Below are positions 1 through 12,387 of a stretch of 64,000 nucleotides of DNA, in pieces; the first letter of the stretch is position 1, and each line of letters starts with the position of its first letter. Origin of the DNA: Limnothrix sp. CACIAM 69d (GTDB lineage Bacteria; Cyanobacteriota; Cyanobacteriia; CACIAM-69d); contig MKGP02000048.1 of assembly GCA_001913845.2 (NCBI GenBank), forward strand, positions 1 through 64,000, written 5' to 3'. A program made the translations under genes and the position numbers. Under the pieces are notes generated by a model, which saw only the letters and a list, made by a program, of their open reading frames with translations, had not been told where the DNA came from and did not search any database.

Positions 1-12
1 AAAGCAAGTTGT

Positions 13-260
13 GTGCTCAACGCCTTACGGCATCAGAGGTTTGGGCACGCGAGTTTGGGCACTTCCCCCAACGTTGCCAAAATCTGTGCTCAACGCCTTA
101 CGGCATCAGAGGTTTGGGCACGGTATTTTCCAGCAGGTCAACCGCTGCATGGATGTGCTCAACGCCTTACGGCATCAGAGTTTGGGCACGCGTGGGGACT
201 GGTATTTAACGGGTTTCCACTTGCGTGCTCAACGCCTTACGGCATCAGAGGTTTGGGCAC
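13..260 (-). CRISPR. CRISPR array, leader-proximal end (4 repeats, 3 spacers visible)
   Basis: Repeats lie at 13-48, 86-121, 155-189 and 225-260. Three are identical 36-mers; the one at 155-189 lacks one G before TTTGGGCAC and is 35 nt. Spacers are 49-85 (37 nt), 122-154 (33 nt) and 190-224 (35 nt), and bases 1-12 are the end of a further spacer, so the array continues beyond the window. Read on the minus strand, the repeat starts GTGCCCAAACC and ends GGCGTTGAGCAC, with a short GCC-GTAA-GGC stem-loop. The cas genes run toward the array on the same strand, so the leader should lie at 261-522 and the 225-260 repeat should be the newest. Spacer targets cannot be told from here. Confidence 0.97.
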
Positions 261-522
261 CCCGCCGCCCGAAACCCTTACGGGACAAGCGCCGAAATGC
301 AACCTTACAAGCATCTTACCCGATCGCCCCCCGATCGCCCCGAAAGCTGCAAACAATTGACATTTTCCCGATCGCCCAAGCCTTGCCCCACAAGCCTTCC
401 AGCCATTTACAAGCATCTCCAATCCCCCCAAAGTCCCCCAAACCCAGGCCCCAAAACACCTCCAGCTCCCGCGAAACCCGATCGCCCCGCCACGGCCAGA
501 GGTGCTTGTAAAATCCCCAACC
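261..522 (-). promoter_or_regulatory. probable CRISPR leader
   Basis: This is the non-coding stretch between the cas2 stop and the first repeat. It is C-rich on the plus strand. The 11-mer TTACAAGCATC occurs at 305-315 and again at 407-417, 102 bp apart, and a partial inverted copy (GTGCTTGTAA) lies at 504-513. The position upstream of the newest repeat in the direction of transcription is what identifies it as leader. No promoter hexamers stand out clearly enough to be called. Confidence 0.6.
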
Positions 523-816
523 CTACAACATCCGAAAACTGTCCGGCTTCAACGCCCAATCCACCGAGTCATTGCAGCGCTGCGCCCGCTTCACACAGGC
601 ATCGCAAACCCCCAAAATCAACAGATCATCCTCCGGTTTCAAGATCTTCGATAACTCCCATCGCAATTTCTCCCGATCGCGCTGACTCAGCCAACAGCGA
701 AAAATCGACAATTGCAACCGATCGCCATAGCCCTGTAACAGCTTGTAAGCCTTGCGCCACCGCTTCGGACAGCGGATGTCATAGCAAACCAAATACCAGG
801 ATTTTGCCTCCGCCAT
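523..816 (-). CDS. cas2: CRISPR-associated endonuclease Cas2
   Basis: A protein of 97 residues starting MAEAKSWYLVCYDIRC. The N-terminal beta strand ending in YDI carries the conserved Cas2 metal-binding Asp, followed by the ferredoxin-like fold (LQGYGDRLQLSIFRCWL). Cas2 forms the Cas1-Cas2 integrase that inserts new spacers. The ATG at 816 is preferred over an upstream GTG at 864 because it leaves a 2-bp gap after the cas4-cas1 stop, whereas the upstream start would overlap that gene by 46 bp. It is the last gene of the cas operon and lies about 260 bp from the array. The length is normal for Cas2. Confidence 0.93.
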   Translation of the reverse strand: MAEAKSWYLVCYDIRCPKRWRKAYKLLQGYGDRLQLSIFRCWLSQRDREKLRWELSKILKPEDDLLILGVCDACVKRAQRCNDSVDWALKPDSFRML

Positions 817-818
817 GA

Positions 819-2549
819 TCAGCGCACCGACCAGGCCGCAAACAGACCCGGTTCGCCCGACCACTCCTTCTCCAATAGCCGCGCCTCCAGCTCAAACAAC
901 CGCCGATAGGTCAGTGAATAGCCCGTCACGGGATGTTTCCAAACATCTTGCTTCCGCCGCTCATAGAGCTGGATGAATTTCCGTCGGCCCTGATCACTCA
1001 GCCAAACTTGCTGCACCTGCTGTTGCGCCTTGCCTCGCCCCACCGTGCAGATCGCAAAATCTTCCTCCGGCTGCCACATGCCGCGATTCACCGAAGCCAA
1101 CACCAACAGTTCCACCAGGGGCAAGCGAAACAGTTCCATCAAATCCAAGGCCAGCGGCGGGGCCTGGCTGCGCGGTTGGTGATAGAACCCGAGGGCCGGT
1201 TCCAGCCCGATCGCGATCAGTGCATTGGTGATGTCCTTCAGCAGCAAGCCATAGCCAAACCCCAACAGACAGTTGAACCGATCGCGTGGGGGGCGACGGT
1301 TGCGATCGCTGAACTGCAACTCTGGCGGCACGGTTTCCACCAACAACGACGGCAGGGCGCTGAAGTAGAGGGCCGCGATTTTGCCCTCAAAGCCCAGCAG
1401 CCCCGCGAGGGATTCGGCCCGCTCCAGCCGATCGATCAGGGGCTTCATTTGGATAATTGCACTGTCCACCAGGGGCAACACCGCCGATCGAGTGCGCCGA
1501 ACGCGCATCAGAAATTGGCGCTGACTCTTGGTTTTGGCGATCACCAGTTTCCGAGCCAGTTGCAAACTGGTGTCGGGATCGCTGAGGGCGCAGTATTGCC
1601 GAACGCGGCGCTGAATGCTGCCGGCCCGGTAGTCAAAGCCGCCCATGTAGCGCCCGCCACCGGAGACAAAATGCACGCCGATCGCTCGATCGTGGCAAAA
1701 ATGCAGCGCTTGGGTGGAAATTTGGGCATAGCTGTGCAACACCACTTGGCCCACACGCTCCACGGGCATCAGATTGACGGTGTTATCGCGTTGGGTGAGC
1801 TTGAGCTGCTCGCCCTTGCGTCCAACGCGGGTTCCGGCTTCCAAAACATGGACGACTTCCCGATCGTCGTCGGCCGGAAACAGGCGCACCGGCTCCCAGC
1901 CGCGATCGTGAACGAGGCGAGCTTCCTCGGGCAGGCAAACGGGAGCCAAGGAACAGCGGGTACAGAGTCGATCGTTGTCCGTGACCGGTGGGCGCTGGGT
2001 CGATCGCCGCAGTTCCCGCGCTTGGGCGATCGCCGCCGCCACCTCCGCCCGGCCGCCCGGGTCGATCGGCACGCGCACCAACACATTCTCGGCATGGTAG
2101 CGAATCCGCCCCTCTTGCACCTGAACGCTCAAGGCCGCTTCCAGCAAACAGGCATAGGCCAACAGTTGCAGGCGATCGCTCGGCCAGGCTTCCGGCTGTT
2201 TGTTGGCCCCGCGTCGACAGCGGCCCCGCTTGTGCTCGTAGGGAATGAGTTGCCCATCGCGCGATCGCAGGGCATCCAACTTGCCCCGCAACCCCAAGGC
2301 TTCGCTTTCCAAAGTCAGCTCCACCCACTCGCCTTCCGCCACCTCCGCCAGTTCCTGATGCAATTTGCGACCGGCAAACACCGCCGCATCTTGCACATAA
2401 AGTTCTTCAACTTCTTCGAGATAAAACAGACGCGGACAATAGGCGAGGGCGTGGAGTGCCGAAACCCGGATCGTTGCTGTCAGTTCGGATGAATCTGATG
2501 CGGGCGTGGTGGATGTCGGCTCCAGCCAAGGATCAGTGTCTATCTCCAT
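819..2549 (-). CDS. cas4-cas1: Cas4-Cas1 fusion (spacer acquisition endonuclease)
   Basis: A 576-residue fusion. Residues about 28-215 are Cas4, a PD-(D/E)XK nuclease with an iron-sulfur cluster: Cys38 of the YCPR motif, Asp92, the EHK motif at 105-107, and C196, C199 and C205. Residues about 235-576 are the Cas1 integrase, with Glu388 in GFEGKIAALYF, His457 in GFYHQPRS and Asp469/Glu472 in LALDLMELFR. Cas4 trims pre-spacers and selects those next to a PAM; Cas1 with Cas2 integrates them. Fused Cas4-Cas1 is known in Myxan-type and some I-B/I-U loci. All expected catalytic residues are present. The ATG has a strong Shine-Dalgarno GAGGTGA six bases upstream; that site lies in a hairpin with a CRISPR-repeat-like sequence, which may gate its translation. 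Confidence 0.95.
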   Translation of the reverse strand: MEIDTDPWLEPTSTTPASDSSELTATIRVSALHALAYCPRLFYLEEVEELYVQDAAVFAGRKLHQELAEVAEGEWVELTLESEALGLRGKLDALRSRDGQLIPYEHKRGRCRRGANKQPEAWPSDRLQLLAYACLLEAALSVQVQEGRIRYHAENVLVRVPIDPGGRAEVAAAIAQARELRRSTQRPPVTDNDRLCTRCSLAPVCLPEEARLVHDRGWEPVRLFPADDDREVVHVLEAGTRVGRKGEQLKLTQRDNTVNLMPVERVGQVVLHSYAQISTQALHFCHDRAIGVHFVSGGGRYMGGFDYRAGSIQRRVRQYCALSDPDTSLQLARKLVIAKTKSQRQFLMRVRRTRSAVLPLVDSAIIQMKPLIDRLERAESLAGLLGFEGKIAALYFSALPSLLVETVPPELQFSDRNRRPPRDRFNCLLGFGYGLLLKDITNALIAIGLEPALGFYHQPRSQAPPLALDLMELFRLPLVELLVLASVNRGMWQPEEDFAICTVGRGKAQQQVQQVWLSDQGRRKFIQLYERRKQDVWKHPVTGYSLTYRRLFELEARLLEKEWSGEPGLFAAWSVR

Positions 2550-2554
2550 CGAAA

Positions 2555-2645
2555 TTCACCTCTGAAATGGATGGGGTTGATCAGATTGGGCCAGCAGTTT
2601 TGTTCTTTTCTGCTCTGCTCAACGCCAAAGGGCATCAGAGGTGAA
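2555..2645 (-). promoter_or_regulatory. repeat-derived 5'-UTR element able to mask the cas4-cas1 ribosome site
   Basis: At 2616-2642 the sequence matches positions 2-28 of the CRISPR repeat at 24 of 27 bases without gaps. All three differences fall in the loop (TTAC becomes AAAG), so the GGC/GCC stem is kept. Immediately beside it, TCAGAGGTGAA (2635-2645) is the exact reverse complement of TTCACCTCTGA at 2555-2565. On the minus-strand RNA the second arm contains GAGGUGA, the Shine-Dalgarno of cas4-cas1, six bases before its AUG. An inner AGCAG/CTGCT stem (plus-strand 2592-2613) adds a second hairpin. The structure is read from the sequence; the regulatory role is inference. Confidence 0.7.
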
Positions 2646-2670
2646 GGGCGATCGCATCAATCAAATCGTT

Positions 2671-2750
2671 GGGAGCAAGGGGCTTTATCACCTTGTCTAG
2701 GATGCATTCAGCCAGTTTGGGGCAAGGGGTTTAACCCCCTTGTCTGGTTA
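2671..2750. repeat. two copies of a dispersed palindromic repeat (family A)
   Basis: Copies at 2671-2700 and 2719-2750 share the form GGGGCAAGGGG-TTTAA-CCCCCTTGTCTGG, a GC-rich palindrome with a short AT centre. Further pairs occur at 46488-46604 and 59548-59638. The copy at 2671 is degenerate. They fill most of the gap between the DUF29 gene and the cas4-cas1 leader and resemble REP-type extragenic palindromes; on the minus strand they could also act as a weak transcript end for DUF29. Confidence 0.75.
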
Positions 2751-2754
2751 GTGT

Positions 2755-3213
2755 TTAGCTCAAGTCGGGCGCATCAAATTGATCGGAATTGATCACAAAT
2801 TCCCAATCAAAGGGTGATGCTGAAGGCACGAGATTTTCCTCATAATCTTCCAAACCCATTTCATCGATCGCCAACAATCGCCCCAACTCATAGGCTTCGG
2901 CAAACGCTTCCGAGATCACTGGTTGCAAGCTGGGATTTTTGGTCAGCAACTTGCGAATTTCCAAGCGCTGCACCCGAATGGTAGTCATCCACGATCGACT
3001 TTGGCGATCGGGTTGATAGCGCCACTTCAACAGATGCCCCAACAAAATTCGCAACCGGTTGACGAGTTCCTTGCGTTCCTGTCGTCCCATGCTTTCAATT
3101 TCGTCTGCCAGTCGTTCCCAGTCGATCGCTGCCCCATTGCGATCGCGCAGCAGGGCGGCCTGGGCGATCGTCCAGCCATAGAAATCGGTGTCGTAGGCGC
3201 TGTTTTCCGTCAC
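2755..3213 (-). CDS. DUF29 family protein inside the cas operon
   Basis: A protein of 152 residues with the DUF29 pattern: an N-terminal YDTDFYGWTIAQAALLRDR stretch, then IDWERLADEIESMGRQERKEL, and a helical segment LGHLLKWRYQPDRQSRSW. DUF29 proteins are common in cyanobacteria and have no established function. It begins at a GTG that overlaps the cas5 stop by 4 bp, so it is translationally coupled to the effector genes. It lies between cas5 and the adaptation genes. Nothing catalytic can be pointed to. It could be a passenger or an accessory factor; the coupling favours co-expression but does not prove a role in immunity. Confidence 0.85.
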   Translation of the reverse strand: MTENSAYDTDFYGWTIAQAALLRDRNGAAIDWERLADEIESMGRQERKELVNRLRILLGHLLKWRYQPDRQSRSWMTTIRVQRLEIRKLLTKNPSLQPVISEAFAEAYELGRLLAIDEMGLEDYEENLVPSASPFDWEFVINSDQFDAPDLS

Positions 3214-3878
3214 GTCTTCCGCCCTCCTTTAACCGGTTTCGCCGTGGGTTGACCATTGATCGTTACCCAAGCGCGATCGTCAAAATCGGCAGCTTCAGTC
3301 AGTGAAAAGCGCTGAAAGGTTCCTCTGGTGGTTGTGCGATCAATCCAGACCGGCAACCCAATCAAGCCCCTTGCATCTTTAATCAGCCAGCGCACAGGGC
3401 CATCGGTTTCCCGATAGAGCCGCATTCCATTCACCATTGCCCAAGATTCGCCGAGGCTCAAGCCACCAAATCGACGAATTTTTTCAGGTGTTGTGAGGGC
3501 GATTGAAAGGCGATCCAATAATCCAATAGTCGCTAATTCCTGGCTGGAATCCACCCGCAAAACCAGCTTCAAATCAGTCAGAATTTCTTGAAAATTGGGT
3601 TTAGAAAACTGACTGGTTGGATAATTGCCCAGATGTTGCTTGCTGAACTTATGGTGGCGCTGTTTTCGCAAAATTCGTGAAATGGGTGGTGCTTGGCCAA
3701 TTAGCCCGATCGCCAGTTGCACACCGAGATGCGCCGTCATATCTTCTTCGCCCACCAGCGACAAAAGAAATCCATAAACCGTCGAAGGCGGTGGGTATTG
3801 GTAGGTTTCCTTATAGTCCCTGGCAAAGCTGCGTGGAAAGCTGGTGCAAGGACAATCCAAATAGAACCAGTTGTTCAT
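3210..3878 (-). CDS. cas5: Cas5 (DevS/Cmx5-type Cascade subunit)
   Basis: A 222-residue protein with the Cas5 N-terminal RAMP strand (NWFYLDCPCTSFPRSFAR) and the family signature YPPPSTVYGFLLSLVGEED. Cas5 caps the 5' handle of the crRNA in the Cascade surveillance complex. The sequence most resembles the DevS/Myxan type rather than Cas5 of I-E or I-C. Its ATG overlaps the cas7 stop by one base (TAATG), and its own stop overlaps the next gene, so cas7-cas5-DUF29 form a tightly coupled unit. Length is in the usual range. Confidence 0.92.
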   Translation of the reverse strand: MNNWFYLDCPCTSFPRSFARDYKETYQYPPPSTVYGFLLSLVGEEDMTAHLGVQLAIGLIGQAPPISRILRKQRHHKFSKQHLGNYPTSQFSKPNFQEILTDLKLVLRVDSSQELATIGLLDRLSIALTTPEKIRRFGGLSLGESWAMVNGMRLYRETDGPVRWLIKDARGLIGLPVWIDRTTTRGTFQRFSLTEAADFDDRAWVTINGQPTAKPVKGGRKT

Positions 3879-4744
3879 TAGGCAATAATCCCCGCTGCTT
3901 TTAGTTGTGTTTTTGCAGCATCCTTGGCAGCTTTTACGCCATCAAAAACAGGAGCTCCCAAACTCTTGAGGGTTTCTCCATAGGGCGTTTTGGCAATCTT
4001 ACCCCCAATGATTAACTCTTCGGGGTTGATATCGCCCGCCTCCAGTAGTCGAATCAATTCTGGGCAGCCCACCTCTTCTCCAACGCGCTTGAAGCAACCC
4101 ATAATCCAAGGGCTGGGATCTTCAGTAATTCGCAAGACGATCGATTCCGGTCGAAATTCATACAGGAACCGCGAGTGATTGCCACCCACGTGGCGAACAC
4201 CCACCAGCGCTTCCAAAAAAGCGGCAGCGCGATCGGGCTTTTTCAGGTGCTCAGGAGTCAGGGCGATCGCATACTGATAAGCCGTGTTGTGCATTTCTGT
4301 GTTGTGAATTGAGGTGCTGCCTTTTTCACCCCCCTTGGAACCAAAAGCAATATCACCCCAGTAGGGATCAAGGCTGATCGCGCGGCTAACTTCTAATGCA
4401 CCACGACGCTTTTCAGTGGCGTTTTTGTTGTCCTTGTCCTTCTTCGCATCCATGTAGCCAAACAAGTCATCATCAATGAACTTTTCAGCGCTGTGTTTTT
4501 CGTCCTTGATATCGTACTTGTCGCGATCGGGGTCAAATGTTCGATTGACTTCCTCGGCTGCGAAATGATGCTGAAAATATTCCCGATAGCCCCAACGAAT
4601 GGCATCAGCACTGACCGTGGTGTATTGGTCATTGCCTCGTGTGATCTTTTGGAGTGTAGCCAAAGTGCTACCGTCACCTTCACCTCGGTTATTCGCCGCG
4701 ATCGCAGTGGGAGTGACAATATTGGCAAACAAATGCTTAGACAT
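3878..4744 (-). CDS. cas7: Cas7 (DevR/Cst2-type Cascade backbone)
   Basis: A 288-residue Cas7 of the DevR/Cst2 family. The N-terminus MSKHLFANIVTPTAIAANN, the segment ITRGNDQYTTVSADAIRWGY, and the later HVGGNHSRFLYEF are typical. Several copies coat the crRNA spacer and form the Cascade filament; in Myxococcus the homologue DevR also feeds back on dev operon expression. An internal Lys/Asp-rich segment (DAKKDKDNKN) is a likely loop. The ATG is preceded by CAGAGGA, and this ribosome site, within TCAGAGGA, shares 7-8 bases with the CRISPR repeat in the complementary sense. Confidence 0.93.
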   Translation of the reverse strand: MSKHLFANIVTPTAIAANNRGEGDGSTLATLQKITRGNDQYTTVSADAIRWGYREYFQHHFAAEEVNRTFDPDRDKYDIKDEKHSAEKFIDDDLFGYMDAKKDKDNKNATEKRRGALEVSRAISLDPYWGDIAFGSKGGEKGSTSIHNTEMHNTAYQYAIALTPEHLKKPDRAAAFLEALVGVRHVGGNHSRFLYEFRPESIVLRITEDPSPWIMGCFKRVGEEVGCPELIRLLEAGDINPEELIIGGKIAKTPYGETLKSLGAPVFDGVKAAKDAAKTQLKAAGIIA

Positions 4745-4798
4745 GGTTCGAGTCCTCTGAAGTTAGATCAAAATTGTTAGCAAAGCTGACAGTAAGAG

Positions 4799-6301
4799 TT
4801 ACGAAAAATTGTATTCAAAGCCTTCTGAGTCTTCCTCTGGCTCGATCTCATCCACACTCAAATCAGGATCGCCCGACCCTTCGATCGTCTTTTTCTTGTA
4901 GGTTGCGATCGCCAACAGTGCCAAATCCCGAGCCTTCCGCCAGTTATCGCCAGTGTGCAGCCAAGCATAAATCTCTAAGCCTTCCCCCTTCGCTGTGGAA
5001 GGGCGATACTGAGCCAGAAAGTCAACCAAAGCCTTAGCAAATTCTTGCTGAGTGGCTGGTCGTTGCAAGCGATAAATGGCCTTATCAGCACTCCGTTTAG
5101 CAACATCCCAGCCTTGCTCCTGGGTTAAATTGCCTCCCATTTGATCAGATCGAGCCTTAAATTGTCCTGCTCGAAATTTACCGAAAGCATCATGTACCGA
5201 TTGAAAAAGTAGCCGCTCTGATTCCGAAAGAAATTGTGTCATTTTGGCTAATCCTTGACGTTCAAACAGTTTATTTTTCTTGAGAAACTCGAAAAATCCC
5301 GAGTACCAAGGGCGATCGCCAATTAAGTTATCAGCAATCCAAGGTAAAGCCTGGGACGTTGCTAACCAAGTCTGTCCCTTATCCATCGTGCGAAAGCGAA
5401 CAGGAAAGAATTGCTCGGCACTTGCATAAATTTCCAAAACTTTCTCATTAGTTTTCACTCGATAAACAGCCTGCTTGAGATAGTTTTGATTTTTATCCCA
5501 AGCCTGCTTACCCAGTTGGTAAACTTCGCAGTACTCAAGCCCTAAAAGTTGCCCATTCTCCACAGTCTGCTGCTGAATCAAAAATCGCAATCCCGACTCA
5601 CCCGCTCCGCCCGCTTTGAACTTGATGTAGGGCGTTCCAGCGGACTTACGGCGCAGCCGAACCCAGTTCTTGAGATTTTTGACTTCAGGGATGACTAAAG
5701 CCGATCGCCCCGCCGGTAAGGCGTAATACCCACAACTTAAGGGCAAAAAAAGCAGCGAGACAAAACCAACCGGCGATTCGAGATAGGGGCCATTGACAAA
5801 ACACTCCACCAAGCCTGGTAGATGATGCCCCTTGATGGGAATTTCATCCTTGAACTTACCTTTAGAGGTGAATGCGTCCTTAAAGTCACCCGTGTAATAG
5901 CAATCGAGCAAATCTTTATAGGAAAGCTCAATTTCTGGTTGAGTCTCATCAATCAAAAAATTCAGCGATTTTGGCTGTTTTTCAAGCGTTCGCTGCTGGT
6001 TATGTTGAAGCAAGGTTGAAGTCACACCTTGGGTGAAGGTATAGCGACTTTGGCGATCGAGCTTCAGAACGGGTGGATTGAGATAGCCGTCTTCAATGCA
6101 GTAAGTCTTGTGGGTCAACCACTCGATCGCCTCGCGATCGCTCCCCTCCCAAGACAGCCGAACTTCATCAGCCGTCACGAGCCACGTGAGAGGCGCATCA
6201 TCTGGGGAGATTGCTGACAAAGCCAACGCCAGGCCAGCAATCCCCGCCCGATGTGGCAGGAGCGTATTGGGATCAAGCAGAGATAGTACGAGATCAGTCA
6301 C
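4799..6301 (-). CDS. cas8a1: Cas8a1/Cmx1-type large Cascade subunit (DevT-like)
   Basis: A 500-residue protein with the N-terminal pattern of Myxan Cas8a1/Cmx1: residues 1-60 contain LLDPNTLLPHRAGIAGLALA and SWEGSDREAIEWL, followed by KTYCIEDGYLNPPVLKLD. Cas8 recognises the PAM and recruits Cas3. It begins with a GTG preceded by AAGGAG. It is separated from cas7 by 54 bp and lies 24 bp downstream of the small helix-turn-helix gene. The C-terminus is acidic (DEIEPEEDSEGFEYNFS). Family assignment rests on the N-terminus and on gene order; the middle is divergent, as usual for Cas8. Confidence 0.88.
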   Translation of the reverse strand: MTDLVLSLLDPNTLLPHRAGIAGLALALSAISPDDAPLTWLVTADEVRLSWEGSDREAIEWLTHKTYCIEDGYLNPPVLKLDRQSRYTFTQGVTSTLLQHNQQRTLEKQPKSLNFLIDETQPEIELSYKDLLDCYYTGDFKDAFTSKGKFKDEIPIKGHHLPGLVECFVNGPYLESPVGFVSLLFLPLSCGYYALPAGRSALVIPEVKNLKNWVRLRRKSAGTPYIKFKAGGAGESGLRFLIQQQTVENGQLLGLEYCEVYQLGKQAWDKNQNYLKQAVYRVKTNEKVLEIYASAEQFFPVRFRTMDKGQTWLATSQALPWIADNLIGDRPWYSGFFEFLKKNKLFERQGLAKMTQFLSESERLLFQSVHDAFGKFRAGQFKARSDQMGGNLTQEQGWDVAKRSADKAIYRLQRPATQQEFAKALVDFLAQYRPSTAKGEGLEIYAWLHTGDNWRKARDLALLAIATYKKKTIEGSGDPDLSVDEIEPEEDSEGFEYNFS

Positions 6302-6325
6302 AAGACGCTCCTTAACTTGATTCGT

Positions 6326-6553
6326 TTAGGCAATGTAGACGCGCCAGTAGTCTGAACCCTTTCGGTGGCCGGCATATTCGATCTGTGCCGTGGCCCATTG
6401 GCACGGCCAAAGCAGTGGCAACCGTTTCTGATGTTTGGCCTTATTCAAGGTGCTGCGGGAGATACCGACTTCCGCCACAACTTGCGCGGTTGAGATCGGC
6501 CAAGCTTCTTTTGGAGGAACATCACTCCAGAAATTCAGTTGCTTGGGAGGCAT
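6326..6553 (-). CDS. small helix-turn-helix protein of unknown role
   Basis: A 75-residue protein starting MPPKQLNFWSD. Residues about 20-48 read as a helix-turn-helix (STAQVVAEVGISRSTLNKA), and the C-terminal GSDYWRV segment could form a wing, as in MerR- or excisionase-like proteins. The ATG at 6553 is chosen because GGAG lies 9-10 bases upstream; an in-frame ATG at 6568 and a TTG at 6586 are alternatives. It sits 24 bp before cas8 on the same strand and downstream of an 18-bp direct-repeat pair. It is not one of the standard Myxan cas genes. I infer a DNA-binding regulator of the effector operon; no function is proven. Confidence 0.7.
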   Translation of the reverse strand: MPPKQLNFWSDVPPKEAWPISTAQVVAEVGISRSTLNKAKHQKRLPLLWPCQWATAQIEYAGHRKGSDYWRVYIA

Positions 6554-6619
6554 GACACTGTGCTCCATGCGAAACAGTGCGCTCAATATAGCGCAATTTT
6601 TTGCTGCTTCGCTTATAAC

Positions 6620-6668
6620 AAGCTAACATTTTCAAAAACTCCGCACTAGGAAGCTAACATTTTGAAAA
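6620..6668 (-). promoter_or_regulatory. paired 18-bp direct repeats, candidate operator
   Basis: AAGCTAACATTTTCAAAA at 6620-6637 and the same sequence with one change (C to G) at 6651-6668, exactly 31 bp apart, about three helical turns. They lie 67-115 bp upstream of the small helix-turn-helix gene in the only AT-rich part of this gap. Two close copies of one site on one face of the helix suit dimer binding by that protein or another repressor. A perfect 6-bp stem (AGACAG/CTGTCT, 6675-6693) follows. The role is inferred from position only. Confidence 0.55.
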
Positions 6669-6705
6669 TTCTGAAGACAGTTAAGAGCTGTCTAGGCTGC
6701 ACGAG

Positions 6706-6790
6706 CTACTCAACGCCTGAAGGCGATCAGAGGAAATGGCGCTGCGCGCAGCTAGCAAGCTAAGTGCCCAACGCTTAGGAGCGATAGCGG
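6706..6790 (-). repeat. degenerate two-repeat mini-CRISPR between cas3 and the HTH gene
   Basis: The first pseudo-repeat, 6709-6733, matches repeat positions 4-27 at 22 of 24 bases plus one inserted G; both substitutions are in the loop and a CGCC/GGCG stem is kept. The second, 6764-6790, begins GTGCCCAACGC and matches about 20 of 27 with small indels and the same inserted G. Both have the same orientation as the real array. Starts are 58 bp apart compared with 69-73 in the array, so the enclosed pseudo-spacer is short. A 12-bp palindrome (GCTGCGCGCAGC, 6741-6752) lies between them. The layout resembles CreA/CreR-type crRNA-like regulators. Confidence 0.6.
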
Positions 6791-6814
6791 GCAAATCCAT
6801 TCTACGGTTTATGC

Positions 6815-9082
6815 TCATCGCTTTTTAGCTCCTCGATCTGCTGTGTAATCCCACTCCTTGATTGGGGCGATCAGATAGCCTCCATGTCGCTTCCACTGAC
6901 TCACCGCCTTAACAGATGCAATCAGCGGCACAGTGTATTCCCCTAGCTTGCTGTGCGGCAGATTACCCCACGTTGCTTGGTGCTGTTCCAGCAAGGCCGT
7001 AACCGTCATACCTGCCTCGCGCACGGGAGCCGGATAGGTTCGCCACTCGCCATCCAGCAAAACAAAATCCTTTTCTGGTTCAATTGCCTTCGATTCTTGT
7101 TCCAACCATCGGGCTAAATCCCCTTGGCTGACCTCCCCCGGACAATCCCGAATCAAAGCCCAGCCTCGTGCCTTCGTTTCCTGGTTGTAGGGAAGAATTT
7201 CCGGGTCGTCATAAAACACTGCATCTAGGGCGTGGCCGCAATAGCGACGGTTGAGCCGCCCCAATCGTTGAATCAGAGCTGCTGGTTCAGCAACTTGTGA
7301 CACCAGCAACGTCGCCGACAAATCCAACGACATTTCCGCCACCTGGGTACAAATGGCCAACACAGGCTCGTGGCAATCGTCTTTGAAAGCCGCAACTACG
7401 TGGCGATGGTGCTGGACTCGATCGCGATAGCAAAAACGACTGTGATAGAGCACGGCATTTAACCCCCGCTTGAGGGCGCGATCGTACACATCGATCGCCG
7501 TATTCACCTGGTTACAAACCCAGAGAACTTTGCCACCCGATTTCAGTTCATTTTCAACACGCTCCCAATCTGGTTCTTGGCTTTCATGGAACCGATAACG
7601 CCGTAAATCTTCCAGATCGCGCGGCCCAGCAATCAGATTTTCACCTTCAATCAGTCGCCCCCCGCTTACCCACTCGATCGCCCGTATTTGCCAGGGTAAA
7701 AACGAAGCTGACATCAACAATATTGGCGCTTTAACAGTTTCCAGAAATCGCAAAAGCGCCCCAAACAGGCCTTTGTCATAGCAATGCACCTCATCAAAAA
7801 TAAAGGCTGCATTGGCGATCGCCGGAAAACAATACATCGGTCGCCGATTGCATTGCATCAAACCCAAAACCGTATCAACCGTACAGATAATGACTTGACT
7901 TTCCCAAGCTTCAAAGGACTGAAGTTTTAGTGTGGCCTCGTTTTCTGTGTTATCGCCGGCTTCTCGCTCTTCACCCGTACTGGCCAGGTCGATCGCTGCT
8001 CGCGAGTGCATCAAAACTGATTCCACTTCATCTTGCACATAGTCGATGAATCCCTCAGTGCTGGTTCCTGTGGTGGGATAACAGAAAAAGAGTTTCCGAC
8101 CGATCGCGTGACGCTTGGCCCAGTTATATGCCCCAACAGTTTTGCCCGTTCCACAACCAGCCCGCACCAAGCCAACCTGCGAGGAAATATCACCAATAGA
8201 CTTCTGAAAATCTCGAAGCGCTTTCCCCTCTAGACGAACATTAATCACACGATCAAGATCTACTTCCGTCAGTCCTTTCTCAATTGACTCAATAATCCAA
8301 TGTTCTAAATTTAAATCAGTGCTAGAAATTGCCGACCCAATAGAGTCACCCGCCACCAATAGCGATTTAACTACCGCATTTAAGACAATATTTGGCTCCC
8401 AGCTTTCCAAGGCTTGCTTATAAATTTCAAGACGACGATTTTCGATGTCCGACAAAACCCATACACTCTCAGGTTTGGAAGCAAACTTAATCTGTTTAGG
8501 GAGTCCCAATTCTGAGGTTCCAAATTTCAAAAGACCTTTGAAATCGTGATGTAGTGGGTAAAGAAATAAGCGATCATCTCCTGTTTCTGTGCGAACTTCC
8601 CCGACATTATTAGTCTTTTTTCCTTGATTGCCACCTAGTTTCAGGTGATGCCCACCAGCCGCAGCAAGAGCTACTAGAAAATCACCGTCAGACTGCTGCA
8701 ACCAGTCCCGAAACTTCCAAGCCAGTAAAATGGACACAATTTCATGGCGTAGAAGCTGGGGATACTTCAATGGGTTTCGTTGCGGACTTGCACCGACCAT
8801 TTTCTGACGGACAACTCCTTGAAAATGGTGATTCGCTTTGCCCCAATCGTGAATATAGGCAGCCAACCGAGCCGTCGATCGCACATAAGCCAAATCACAC
8901 CCCAGATCAAATTGAGTCATGAGTCGATCGCCCAAGACATCAACCAATGTCGTCACGGCCCGAACAACATTGGCCGTATGCCCAACTAAGCTATAAGCAC
9001 CTTTCCATGGCTCTTCTACAGATTTGGCCAGCAAGCGATCGGGGACAAGCTTAGGAACTGATTGACTAAATTTAGACGACAT
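6815..9082 (-). CDS. cas3: Cas3 nuclease-helicase
   Basis: A 755-residue protein. The N-terminal HD nuclease has GHTANVV near residue 35 and IHDWGKANHHFQ with His78-Asp79. The superfamily 2 helicase follows: Walker A GCGTGKT at about 309-315, DEVH at 430-433, and motif VI IQRLGRLNRR. Cas3 is recruited by Cascade and degrades the target strand. Start ATG at 9082 (MSSKFSQ) overlaps the cas6 stop by 11 bp, which favours it over an upstream in-frame start that would run 74 bp into cas6. HD and helicase are in one chain, as usual. The degenerate mini-CRISPR begins 24 bp after its stop. Confidence 0.95.
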   Translation of the reverse strand: MSSKFSQSVPKLVPDRLLAKSVEEPWKGAYSLVGHTANVVRAVTTLVDVLGDRLMTQFDLGCDLAYVRSTARLAAYIHDWGKANHHFQGVVRQKMVGASPQRNPLKYPQLLRHEIVSILLAWKFRDWLQQSDGDFLVALAAAGGHHLKLGGNQGKKTNNVGEVRTETGDDRLFLYPLHHDFKGLLKFGTSELGLPKQIKFASKPESVWVLSDIENRRLEIYKQALESWEPNIVLNAVVKSLLVAGDSIGSAISSTDLNLEHWIIESIEKGLTEVDLDRVINVRLEGKALRDFQKSIGDISSQVGLVRAGCGTGKTVGAYNWAKRHAIGRKLFFCYPTTGTSTEGFIDYVQDEVESVLMHSRAAIDLASTGEEREAGDNTENEATLKLQSFEAWESQVIICTVDTVLGLMQCNRRPMYCFPAIANAAFIFDEVHCYDKGLFGALLRFLETVKAPILLMSASFLPWQIRAIEWVSGGRLIEGENLIAGPRDLEDLRRYRFHESQEPDWERVENELKSGGKVLWVCNQVNTAIDVYDRALKRGLNAVLYHSRFCYRDRVQHHRHVVAAFKDDCHEPVLAICTQVAEMSLDLSATLLVSQVAEPAALIQRLGRLNRRYCGHALDAVFYDDPEILPYNQETKARGWALIRDCPGEVSQGDLARWLEQESKAIEPEKDFVLLDGEWRTYPAPVREAGMTVTALLEQHQATWGNLPHSKLGEYTVPLIASVKAVSQWKRHGGYLIAPIKEWDYTADRGAKKR

Positions 9083-9791
9083 TAGGAATTTCCTTGGAGG
9101 GATAGAACCAACCACAGCCAAAGTGCTTTCGCCCACCAATACCAACAGACTGGAGCAGAATCGAGTCTTCAGGACTCAAATCTTCAATAATTACGCCATA
9201 GCCCAAAATATGTTTTCCCTTGACCTGCAATGATCGCAGGGCCAAATCACCATCTACATCACTATCAATAGAAAGTTTTCCTGAAATTCCCAGCTTCTCA
9301 AATGCTTTGCGGCACGATTCTAAAAAATGTACTGGTGCGCTGTGAGTATCCCATTCTTCTAAGCGGAACGTCACGAGTCTTGCCCGTAGCGTAGAACTAG
9401 GCTCAGGCAGGATTAAACGTGGTTGAATCAGGCGAATATCATGACTGCGCAGATTTAAAACCTGATTTTGCAAGAGTCGATACCAATAGCTAGCCTGATC
9501 GCTAGGACAGCGTAAGCGCAATCGCGATCTCTGATAAATCTGGATACGTTTATGCCCATCAGAAATTCCAGGAATGCTACTTAGTAGTAACTCTGGACAA
9601 AGTAAGTAATCAACAATTTCTGTTTTCCAATTCTCTGAGCTAGGAAACTGTTTTTTGAATAATGCGATCAAGCTTTCTGGCAGTGCTTCACTTTGCAAGA
9701 GTTGCTTAACTGCTGAGTACAGCGAATAGCCGTGATCGGCTGGCAGTAACTGCCCTTTGACGGAAAATTGGACTTCTAGAATGTTGCTCAT
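9072..9791 (-). CDS. cas6: Cas6 (Myxan-type pre-crRNA endonuclease)
   Basis: A 239-residue Cas6. The C-terminal glycine-rich loop GIGGRKHFGCGWFYP is the RAMP signature, preceded by the second ferredoxin fold. Cas6 cuts the repeat transcript at the base of its stem and leaves the 5' handle on crRNAs. The N-terminus (LEVQFSVKGQLLPADHGYSL) is like Cmx6 proteins. ATG overlaps the stop of the WYL gene (ATGA), and its stop overlaps cas3, so WYL-cas6-cas3 is one coupled unit. The same enzyme would be expected to recognise the pseudo-repeats, whose stems are kept. Confidence 0.92.
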   Translation of the reverse strand: MSNILEVQFSVKGQLLPADHGYSLYSAVKQLLQSEALPESLIALFKKQFPSSENWKTEIVDYLLCPELLLSSIPGISDGHKRIQIYQRSRLRLRCPSDQASYWYRLLQNQVLNLRSHDIRLIQPRLILPEPSSTLRARLVTFRLEEWDTHSAPVHFLESCRKAFEKLGISGKLSIDSDVDGDLALRSLQVKGKHILGYGVIIEDLSPEDSILLQSVGIGGRKHFGCGWFYPSKEIPNVV

Positions 9792-10786
9792 CGTTCAAAG
9801 GTCTCCGTTTCGTATTGGCGTTGCATGATCTCCACCTCCCGCGCGATCGCCCTGACCAGTTCCGGCGGCTCCCGGGCGATCGCCCCCTTGCCATAGCTCA
9901 ACACCCACTGGGTCACATCCCGTAAGCCGCTGACCTCCATCGACAGCAACAGCCCCCCACCCGGCAAATCGGTCAAGTCCTGGGTGCTGTGCCACTGCCG
10001 CCCGCGCACAAAAGGAGCCGTTGCCCGATCGAACTCCACCACCACCCGCCGCGCCGTGTCGCCCACCTCCCAGCGAAAGGCCGTCGCCATGTACTTGCGT
10101 AGGCTGAATCCCGGCTGAACCTGGAAAGGCTGCTCTAGCACCTGTAATTGCAAAATGCGATCGACCCGGAACGTAATCACCTTCTGGCGCTGGTGGCAAA
10201 ATGCCAGCAATTGCAGTGCGTTGTACTGCACCAACATGCCGTAGGGATCCACCACCCGATCGCTCACCGCATCCCGATTAGCTGTGTGGTAGGTTATTTC
10301 AGCGCTGTAGCCATCCCGACAAGCCCGCTCTAGCTGACTCACCACCGCCAAGTCCAAGTTCAAGTCGGCCTTGCTTTGGAATAGGAAGTAATCGTTGCGC
10401 AGTTCACGCGCCTCGATCGCCACCTTGCTGTCCAGCCGTTCACTCAGCCGCCGCAAGCCCGATCGCAACTGCCGGATATAGGGCGAATCCGCATAGGTTT
10501 CCAGCAATCGATCGGTCACCACCAGCGCCAACAGATCGCCTTCCGTAATCAGGATTTGATTCAGTTGCCAATCGGGGTCGCTGTAGTGATGTCCCCGACG
10601 ACTGTTATAGATAATCGGTGCGCCACAGTCTTTTTTAAGAAAGCCTAAGTCCTTGCGAATAATGCGCGGATCGACAGCGTTGTCACGATCAAGGGCCGCC
10701 GCTAGGGATTCATGGGTGTTTCGTCGTTGGGGATCTCGCAACAAACCATCGAGCTGCAAAATGCGCTTGAGTTGGTGAAGCGTCAT
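9788..10786 (-). CDS. WYL-domain transcriptional regulator of the cas operon
   Basis: A 332-residue protein. Residues 1-80 form a winged helix (LHQLKRILQLDGLLRD, then RIIRKDLGFLKKDCGAPI), and the middle and C-terminal parts carry a WYL domain (VVDPYGMLVQYNALQLLAFCHQR) and a C-terminal extension. WYL proteins bind nucleic-acid ligands and commonly regulate CRISPR-Cas and other defence loci. The ATG at 10786 is used; a GTG at 10822 would add 12 residues. It is the first gene of the cas6-cas3 unit and overlaps cas6 by 4 bp. I infer that it controls cas expression; the ligand is unknown. Confidence 0.88.
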   Translation of the reverse strand: MTLHQLKRILQLDGLLRDPQRRNTHESLAAALDRDNAVDPRIIRKDLGFLKKDCGAPIIYNSRRGHHYSDPDWQLNQILITEGDLLALVVTDRLLETYADSPYIRQLRSGLRRLSERLDSKVAIEARELRNDYFLFQSKADLNLDLAVVSQLERACRDGYSAEITYHTANRDAVSDRVVDPYGMLVQYNALQLLAFCHQRQKVITFRVDRILQLQVLEQPFQVQPGFSLRKYMATAFRWEVGDTARRVVVEFDRATAPFVRGRQWHSTQDLTDLPGGGLLLSMEVSGLRDVTQWVLSYGKGAIAREPPELVRAIAREVEIMQRQYETETFER

Positions 10787-11004
10787 GATTGAAGATTTTG
10801 TGAGGAATTGAACGTTGCTCACTGAACCCAGTGTGGCATGTTTCTCGGGGACTGGGGAGGCCTAAATCGATCCACCCTGGCCACTTGATTGCAAGAAATG
10901 CCCCTAGCCGATCGCTCGGATGGCAGCATGAACGGGCGATCGATGGCCAAGCCAGACAGTCGCCCTAAACTAGGAACAGTTCGCCCATTCCCCAGCCCGT
11001 TCCC

Positions 11005-11784
11005 ATGGCCAAGCTTGCGGATTCTCGATTAGGACAGTGGGCCCAGCGCTTGCAAGCGGCCGCCCTGATTGGTGGTCAAACCCTGGTTCACCTCAGCCGT
11101 GGCAAAATTCACCGCCGCAACACGATCGAACAAATGCACCTGGTGGGGCCCGACTCCCTGGGCATTGTGCTGCTGGCCGGCGTGTCGATCGGGGCGGTGT
11201 TTACGATCCAAGTAGCCCGCGAATTTATCAAATATGGAGCCACCTCCGCGATCGGGGGCGTAATGGCCGTGGCCATGGCGCGGGAACTGTCGCCGGTCTT
11301 TGCCGCCGTGATTTTGGCCGGGCGGGTGGGGTCGGCCTTTGCGGCGGAAATTGGCACGATGCGCGTGACGGAGCAAATCGACGCGCTTTATGTGTTGCGC
11401 ACCGACCCGATCGACTATTTAGTCGTGCCTCGGGTTTTGGCCTGTTGCACCATGCTGCCCCTGCTCACAGAATTGGGGTTGCTGGCGGCCATGCTGGCTG
11501 GACTGACGATCTCGGAGTTGGGCTTTGGCATCACCCGCTACGAATTTCTCGACTCCGTGAAAACCTTTTTGGAAGTGCGGGATTTGTTTTGCGCTGCCAT
11601 CAAAGGCGCTTGTTTCGGGGGGCTAATCGCCGCGATCGGCTGTGGTTGGGGTCTCACCACCAGCGGCGGGGCCAAGGGCGTGGGCCAAGCCACCACCTCC
11701 GCCGTGGTCACCTCTTTGCTGGCGATTTTGATTGCCAATTTCTTTTTGTCCTGGTTGATGTTCCGCAGCGCTCCCACGCTCTAG
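11005..11784 (+). CDS. MlaE/YrbE-family ABC transporter permease
   Basis: A 259-residue membrane protein with five or six hydrophobic segments and the MlaE signatures AAVILAGRVGSAFAAEIGTM and EQIDALYVLRTDP. These permeases pair with an MlaF-type ATPase and an MlaD/MCE protein to move lipids between the inner and outer membranes; cyanobacterial and plastid (Ycf63/TGD1) homologues belong to the same family. The ATPase and MCE partners are not beside it here. It is divergent from the cas operon across a 218-bp gap. Start ATG as given. Confidence 0.9.
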   Translation: MAKLADSRLGQWAQRLQAAALIGGQTLVHLSRGKIHRRNTIEQMHLVGPDSLGIVLLAGVSIGAVFTIQVAREFIKYGATSAIGGVMAVAMARELSPVFAAVILAGRVGSAFAAEIGTMRVTEQIDALYVLRTDPIDYLVVPRVLACCTMLPLLTELGLLAAMLAGLTISELGFGITRYEFLDSVKTFLEVRDLFCAAIKGACFGGLIAAIGCGWGLTTSGGAKGVGQATTSAVVTSLLAILIANFFLSWLMFRSAPTL

Positions 11785-11985
11785 GCACAATTGATCGGCG
11801 TGGTCGATCGATTCAGTTGAATGGCTACCAGGCGCTGAATCAAAAATCCCAATTCTCCTGAAACTTCTGGCACGGGATGGGGCTTTTTCGATCGGGTCAG
11901 CTCACCCCAAGAAATCTGTCACAATAGAAGGGATTTCTGGCGCAAAACAGCCGCCGTTTTTAACCCCCCAATTCCGTTCTTGATC

Positions 11986-12387
11986 ATGGCTTTTAAGATT
12001 CAAAAAACCGATGCCGAATGGCAATCGCAACTGACTCCGGAACAGTTTCAAGTGACGCGCAAGCATGGCACGGAACGCGCGTTCACGGGAGAACATTGGG
12101 ATAACAAGGCTCCCGGAACCTACAACTGCGTTTGCTGTGGAACGCCCCTTTTTATTTCAGATACCAAATACGATTCGGGAACCGGCTGGCCCAGTTTTTG
12201 GCAGCCGATCGCCCCGGAGAATATTGAAACCCAGGTCGATCGCACCCTCTGGATGACCCGTACCGAGGTGCATTGCGCCAACTGTGGAGCACACTTGGGC
12301 CATGTGTTTGAAGATGGCCCGCCGCCCACCGGCCTGCGCTATTGCATGAATTCCGCTTCCTTGAAATTTGAGTCGAATCAGGCTTAA
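11986..12387 (+). CDS. msrB: peptide-methionine (R)-S-oxide reductase
   Basis: A 133-residue MsrB. Two CxxC zinc pairs (C48/C51 and C97/C100) and the catalytic Cys120 in [11 protein letters not shown] are all present, with the TGWPSFW substrate-site motif at about 66-72. It repairs the R-epimer of oxidised methionine in proteins using thioredoxin. ATG at 11986 is chosen over a TTG two codons upstream. The gene stands alone and is followed by a strong bidirectional terminator. Confidence 0.96.

Follow-up and report, generated by a model that had tools for sequence, protein, structure and literature searches.

Stand-alone CRISPR repeats and conserved mini-arrays aimed at cas promoters are said to have been described in cas loci by Shmakov et al. 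in 2023, and rRNA mimics are found in the mRNA leaders through which ribosomal-protein genes are autogenously controlled. Repeat copies outside arrays act as guides in the cases of CreA, L-tracrRNA, and scaRNA (PMC8730458); together with the mini-arrays, these are the known repeat-derived regulators, and all of them direct an effector complex to a target. Racr are phage-borne RNA anti-CRISPRs with solitary repeat units (PMC10651486). In Myxococcus xanthus, the dev operon represses itself through DevTRS, reportedly by a mechanism that requires neither Cas3 nor Cas6 (PMC8616872, PMC8730458). Unrestrained acquisition of spacers risks autoimmunity, which raises the question of how bacteria match acquisition to their capacity for using spacers.

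The window analyzed here, a 64,000-nt stretch of Limnothrix sp. CACIAM 69d (contig MKGP02000048.1, positions 1 to 64,000), starts within a CRISPR array that is adjoined by a complete cas operon on the minus strand (Table 1). This operon is a type I-MYXAN CRISPR-Cas system. NCBIfam classed cas1, cas5, cas6, and cas8 as type I-MYXAN, and all four models scored over their cut-offs: cas1_MYXAN TIGR03983 with 506.7 bits (cut-off 358), cas5_cmx5_devS TIGR02586 with 113.3 bits (cut-off 111.5), cas6_cmx6 TIGR02807 with 141.6 bits (cut-off 98.9), and cas8a1/csx13 TIGR03485 with 145.5 bits (cut-off 80.9). The Cas6 of the operon matched the solved type I-B Cas6 8fcj as a relative. The DUF29 gene overlaps the end of cas5 and separates the effector genes from cas4-cas1.

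Table 1. Positions of the array, the cas genes, and the leader elements in the window.
Feature	Position	Strand	Remarks
CRISPR array, repeat ACCTCTGATGCCGTAAGGCGTTGAGCA	1-262	minus-strand crRNA sense	four repeats (12..262), at contig end; Rfam CRISPR-DR33
cas2	523..801	minus	
cas4-cas1 fusion gene, type I-MYXAN	819..2549	minus	AUG 2549-2547
Anti-repeat arm UCAGAGGUGAA	2555..2565	minus	perfect complement of masking arm, 11 bases
Shine-Dalgarno (SD) GAGGUGA	2557..2563	minus	six bases ahead of the AUG
psi-repeat ACCTCTGATGCCCTTTGGCGTTGAGCA	2616..2642	minus	27-base copy of the repeat core, 24/27 identical to array repeat
Cas6-type hairpin GAUGCC-CUUU-GGCGUU	2621..2636	minus	within psi-repeat; from sequence
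Masking arm UUCACCUCUGA	2635..2645	minus	5' side of psi-repeat plus flank
DUF29 gene	2755..3213	minus	directly upstream of cas4-cas1 leader
cas5/devS	3878-3210	minus	
cas7/devR	4744-3878	minus	
cas8	6301-4799	minus	
Small ORF	6586-6326	minus	upstream of cas8
Second repeat-like element CCTCTGATCGCCTTCAGGCGTTGAGTAG	6706..6733	minus	between cas3 and the small ORF
cas3	9145-6815	minus	
cas6/cmx6	9072..9791	minus	presumed reader of psi-repeat
WYL regulator	10822-9788	minus	

Between the DUF29 gene and cas4-cas1, 92 nt ahead of the cas4-cas1 AUG, lies the copy of the array repeat that we call the psi-repeat. The preliminary description had reported a copy of the repeat core with changes in the loop only, and this proved correct, all three changes being in the tetraloop (CTTT for GTAA). 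It is the best match to the array repeat outside the array; the runner-up in the window agrees in 17-18 of 27 positions, and the best scores in shuffled windows (n=30) were 16-20 versus 24 for the psi-repeat. It shares the crRNA sense strand with the operon and the array and retains the handle UUGAGCA. It is a single copy, with the nearest repeat more than 2 kb off, and is not a member of a regularly spaced array.

Like the ribosomal-protein leaders, the cas4-cas1 leader appears to copy an RNA that the product of a neighboring gene normally binds, placed for translation control; however, the mimic is here a CRISPR repeat, a putative ligand of Cas6, and the predicted effect is release instead of repression. 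The stand-alone repeats, mini-arrays, and CreTA (PMC8501985, PMC9458426) are, as in the window, conserved and presumably regulatory repeat copies outside arrays in type I cas loci, but their spacer part guides to a promoter, whereas the window element has no seed match in window positions 1-12000 and the repeat itself is predicted to pair in cis with the ribosome site. Long-form tracrRNA autoregulation of Cas9 and scaRNA (PMC8730458) similarly reuse repeat or anti-repeat sequences for the regulation of their own system; unlike the window element, they belong to class 2, act via Cas9 on DNA, and involve no leader element. Racr resemble the psi-repeat as solitary crRNA-sense repeat mimics able to occupy Cas6, but they are free RNAs and phage inhibitors, whereas the psi-repeat sits in a cas mRNA leader. 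The dev operon of M. xanthus has the same Cas subtype (devS, devR, and the cas8a1/cmx families) and is likewise a self-controlled operon, but differs in that its self-control is reported to be independent of Cas3 and Cas6. A repeat copy pairing in cis with the ribosome site was not found described in the open-licence literature searched, in line with the earlier remark that no regulator of this layout was known.

The 5' side of the psi-repeat, together with flanking bases (UUCA) that are absent from the array repeat and lengthen the cis helix, forms the masking arm. Its proposed pairing over 11 bases with the ribosome site was confirmed as a perfect complement that covers GAGGUGA and is present in the predicted minimum free energy (MFE) fold of the leader (-39.0 kcal/mol, z -2.87; 1 of 200 shuffles as low). 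When the downstream stretch of the window leader was shuffled with dinucleotides preserved, a run of at least 11 pairs occurred in 6 of 20,000 shuffles, and the duplex energy was reached in none of 2,000. With GAGGTG held fixed, which is the fairest control because any good SD is bound to pair partly with the CCTC of the repeat, a run of at least 11 pairs occurred in 405 of 20,000 shuffles (2%); the pairing in the window alone is therefore suggestive, not compelling. The anti-site UCACCUC does match the 3' (anti-SD) end of 16S rRNA, as had been noted, because it complements the SD.

For comparison, cas4-cas1 loci were gathered by family search, a tblastn-confirmed scan, and direct fetch, giving 102 leaders, of which 77 non-redundant ones were left once near-copies had been removed. 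The arrays at these loci carry a repeat of like kind, CCTNNGATGCCGTAAGGCGTTGANCAC. Sorting by regular expressions placed a repeat copy in 30 of the 77 leaders (a class that includes a few doubtful rows, e.g., L064), another hairpin motif in 25, both in 2, and neither in 20; 45 leaders thus carry no psi-repeat. In the clear cases, the copy starts 45-60 nt ahead of the AUG; downstream of it comes the anti-repeat, a stretch in the opposite sense that ends about 0-4 nt before the AUG. Examples are leaders L065 (TGATGCCGTCAGGC ... GCCTTACGACATCATG) and L042 (GATGCCTATAGG ... CCTTGAGGCATCCAAAATG) and those of the Nostoc group (ATGTCGTAAGG ... CCTTACAGACATATATG). The register of the relatives, in which GAUGNCGUNAGG pairs with the stretch before the AUG, differs from that of the window, where the 5' arm pairs with the SD and the spacing is 92 nt.

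The other hairpin-like motif, CGGAAGnnTTTTTGCCG, occurs in about 27 of the 77 cas4-cas1 leaders (L021, L022, L044, L048, L081, L092, L096, L104, and others), and leader L117 holds it together with a repeat copy. Rfam at gathering score matched only the array at L044, L048, and L081 and left these motif leaders unmatched; Rfam matches were confined to array repeats (CRISPR-DR33), and no leader family was found.

Pairing in the repeat-bearing leaders was compared with that in dinucleotide shuffles of the downstream stretch. In this duplex test, 22 of 29 repeat-bearing leaders were significant at p <=0.05, with a Fisher value of 6e-21 that is only indicative because the leaders are not all independent by descent. 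Of 90 mock arms drawn from copy-free leaders, 5 reached p <=0.05, and an earlier version of the shuffle test gave 19 of 32 leaders. The window leader was among the significant ones (p 0.006); the psi-leaders L063, L066, L082, L089, and L117 yielded no significant partner in the duplex test. A third register, in which the 3' arm of the psi-repeat pairs with CAUGC at the start codon in the MFE folds of L063 and L082, was non-significant by the same test and was rejected. Each copy paired more strongly with its own anti-repeat than with swapped partners (p 0.00025, 26 leaders), also with one leader per lineage (p 0.004, 14 representatives).

In a MAFFT alignment, 79% of the cells of the 12-pair helix were standard pairs, compared with 31-51% when the partner was displaced by one, two, or three columns. 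The clearest double change, from C-G to U-A (GAUGCC/GGCAU to GAUGUC/GACAU), affects one pair in 6 of 26 rows. The column covariation score was reached by 36 of 500 letter shuffles, a modest excess that is small because the repeat side hardly varies; the excess over slid partners was large. RNAalifold on this alignment returned a consensus of three pairs only, corresponding to the short Cas6-type hairpin, and the start-masking helix was the MFE fold of nearly all repeat-bearing leaders, ending just ahead of the AUG. Wobble pairs (26 cells) were not clearly commoner than A-C mismatches (19 cells), and a DNA-level inverted repeat is therefore compatible with that test. Covariance model R1, run on 12 whole genomes, gave strong matches at cas4-cas1 leaders and weaker ones resembling array units, many of them regularly spaced; it failed to find the window's own leader because the register there differs.

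These comparisons give good support to a predicted helix over the SD or start that the relatives conserve and in which each arm is specific to its partner. The claim that a repeat copy is placed to mask the cas4-cas1 start thus extends beyond the window, to a recurrent, non-random architecture in cyanobacterial type I-MYXAN systems. The preliminary description had pointed to conserved pairing with compensatory changes in relatives as the evidence to seek; this was found for the architecture, in the partner-specific pairing and the C-G to U-A change, but not for the window register: among six genomes searched in the order of the window genome, only the window's own has a system over the family cut-off, and no close relative with the system was found. 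In a quick tree, the window Cas4-Cas1 lay at the end of a long branch, apart from the main cluster of repeat-bearing leaders. The window leader is either an old element with a changed register or a repeat copy recruited a second time for the same task. Both readings lead to the same predicted outcome, a repeat copy that masks the start, with the comparison supporting the register of the relatives and the exact pairing of the window standing as a register of its own, outside that comparative support.

The copies also retain the Cas6-type hairpin GAUGCC/GGCGUU (89.7% of cells paired; -2 to -8 kcal/mol). With the repeat hairpin kept and cas6 in the operon, the leader appears to hold a mimic of the normal RNA target of Cas6. 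In the relatives, the hairpin and the masking helix share bases and are therefore mutually exclusive. The predicted openness of positions -17 to -4 had medians across leaders of 0.26 in the free RNA, 0.67 with the hairpin forced, and 0.66 after a cut, where the cut state was obtained by removing all RNA 5' of the presumed Cas6 cleavage site and all openness values are predictions for naked RNA. For the window SD, the corresponding predictions were 0.00 free, 0.14 with the hairpin forced, 0.54 with the arm blocked, and 0.55 cut. The masking arm of the window lies mostly beside the hairpin and the two folds are nearly compatible, so if only the hairpin were bound, the SD would hardly open. The 8-nt handle region of Cas6 is often lost from the psi-repeats of the relatives, which argues for binding by Cas6 more than cutting there.

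We consider that the cas4-cas1 leader is probably a cis-acting RNA switch that keeps translation low until Cas6 binds or cuts the repeat mimic, and put the probability at roughly 55%. A Cas6 switch is the most likely use of the masking helix, the Cas6 step being one that we infer. The unbound psi-repeat would pair with the anti-repeat and hide either the SD or the last bases ahead of the AUG, and the masked start would be poorly translated. Alternatively, the psi-repeat would fold as the repeat hairpin that Cas6 presumably recognizes; free Cas6 would bind this hairpin, or cut at the 3' base of its stem and thereby remove the psi-arm, and the start would be freed. Spacer acquisition would then rise once Cas6 exceeds its occupancy by pre-crRNA. 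In the window, where the arm consists of the 5' repeat side and flank, release would require that the arm be cut or covered, and hairpin formation alone would be insufficient. The direction of the effect, activation by Cas6, follows from the competing folds; bound Cas6 that hinders ribosomes could reverse its sign. If true, the repeat would here be put to a different use, as a cis translation switch on the acquisition genes that is read by the repeat-processing enzyme, comparable to ribosomal proteins controlling their own mRNAs via rRNA mimics. Many related cyanobacteria keep such a fold, which suggests that a repeat-binding protein may time the making of new immune memories.

A scan of the operons at 49 loci (399 kb in all) looked for isolated repeat copies, allowing up to 3 mismatches. 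Between genes, 48 repeat-like sequences lay on the coding strand and none on the other; within genes, 2 lay on the coding strand and 1 on the other. The intergenic copies precede cas4-cas1 (26), cas6 (19), and cas7 (3). Before cas4-cas1, the median gap between the preceding ORF and the psi-repeat is 45 nt, and gaps of 10-15 nt are frequent, so in many genomes it is probably an element inside a polycistronic RNA and not part of a promoter region. In several folds, the hairpin also forms in the copies ahead of cas6 and cas7, for which no matching anti-repeat was found. A broader reading, which we advance tentatively and hold to be somewhat doubtful, is that repeat mimics are the RNA operators of a Cas6 regulon, with a start-masking anti-repeat in the cas4-cas1 leader (adaptation) and none in the cas6 and cas7 leaders (effector). 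One repeat-binding protein would thus sense unprocessed repeat RNA and balance acquisition against interference by translation and possibly by mRNA cutting between the modules.

The absence of anti-repeats before cas6 and cas7 also fits a role of Cas6 as a repressor, autorepression or mRNA cutting being the natural reading at those genes. Binding of the psi-hairpin, or cutting of the polycistronic mRNA, would then block or destabilize the cas4-cas1 mRNA as feedback on all messages marked for Cas6, and the helix would merely tune this. At cas4-cas1 we regard repression as unlikely, because the anti-repeat competes with the hairpin and Cas6 binding should open the start. The anti-repeat might instead act in trans, pairing with unprocessed array repeats so that their surplus shuts off cas4-cas1, with the psi-repeat as a competitor or relic. 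The energies leave room for this: anti-repeats pair with their own array at -12.9 and with their own psi-repeat at -13.9 kcal/mol, the consensus repeat reaches -16.4 versus -15.9 kcal/mol for the psi-repeat (14 representatives set), and the array repeat of the window has 8 bases (ACCUCUGA) that match the SD arm. Proximity, however, favors pairing in cis, as do the UUCA flank, which extends the cis helix only, and the anti-repeats of L045, L049, L051, L054, L070, and L077, which prefer the psi-repeat over their own array repeat by 3-10 kcal/mol; a sensor in trans is rather unlikely.

The psi-repeat could also be the repeat of a CreA/CreR-type crRNA-like RNA that sends Cascade to a cas promoter, its pairing with the SD being incidental. 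Guides of this kind occur in cas loci (PMC8730458, PMC8501985, PMC9458426), the window copy retains the handle, and in five relatives paired repeats with a conserved spacer lie upstream of cas6. Most cas4-cas1 copies in the relatives lack the handle, the stretch that follows each of the two window elements has no 9-nt seed match within the first 12 kb other than itself, and the partner-specific anti-repeat beside the AUG would be left unexplained, which makes a guide improbable. As a candidate for the window element, it found no support, with near-matches of only 11-16/30 in window positions 1-12000. We consider it just as improbable that the copy is a relic or chance occurrence whose CCUC happens to match the SD. 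The 2% of SD-fixed shuffles with an 11-base run, taken for the window alone, and a register that the relatives do not share would allow it; what speaks against it is that copies recur in about 30 of 77 leaders, that the pairing is specific to the partner, and that there is a strand bias. Very improbable, in our view, is a DNA operator in which the psi-repeat and the anti-repeat form an inverted repeat bound by Cas1-Cas2, the WYL protein, or another regulator. Cas1-Cas2 recognize repeat DNA, dimeric operators likewise look like inverted repeats, and the near-equal frequency of wobble pairs and A-C mismatches suits such a site. Yet the preceding gene often ends 10-15 nt before the element and leaves no room for a promoter, every intergenic copy lies on the coding strand, and the second arm keeps a set distance from the AUG.

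In five relatives (L042:3080-3208, L043:3290-3418, L056:937-1065, L057:3255-3383, and L070:3322-3450), two repeats with a spacing of exactly 102 nt flank a conserved 66-nt stretch and directly precede a TTGACAT promoter-like site upstream of cas6; the 66-nt stretch showed no consistent seed match in nearby DNA. Single repeat-like hairpins on the coding strand, lacking an anti-repeat, were observed about 40-125 nt before the starts of cas6 (L043:3531, L054:3548, L055:2763, L056:1217, L060:2632, L066:3438, and L070:3601) and cas7 (L045:7552, L050:8192, and L066:8153). The preliminary description had overlooked the copies in the leaders of the relatives and, in the window, the second repeat-like element, which is more diverged and has an altered loop and a stem one base longer than that of the repeat. 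A direct repeat, TTTTCAAAATGTTAGCTT / TTTTTGAAAATGTTAGCTT, at about 6665-6618 on the minus strand lies just upstream of the small ORF and is possibly its operator. Two similar hairpins, CAAGGGGGTTAAACCCCTTG and CAAGGTGATAAAGCCCCTTG, are found at 2745-2672 between the DUF29 gene and the psi-repeat and are terminator-like on the plus strand only.
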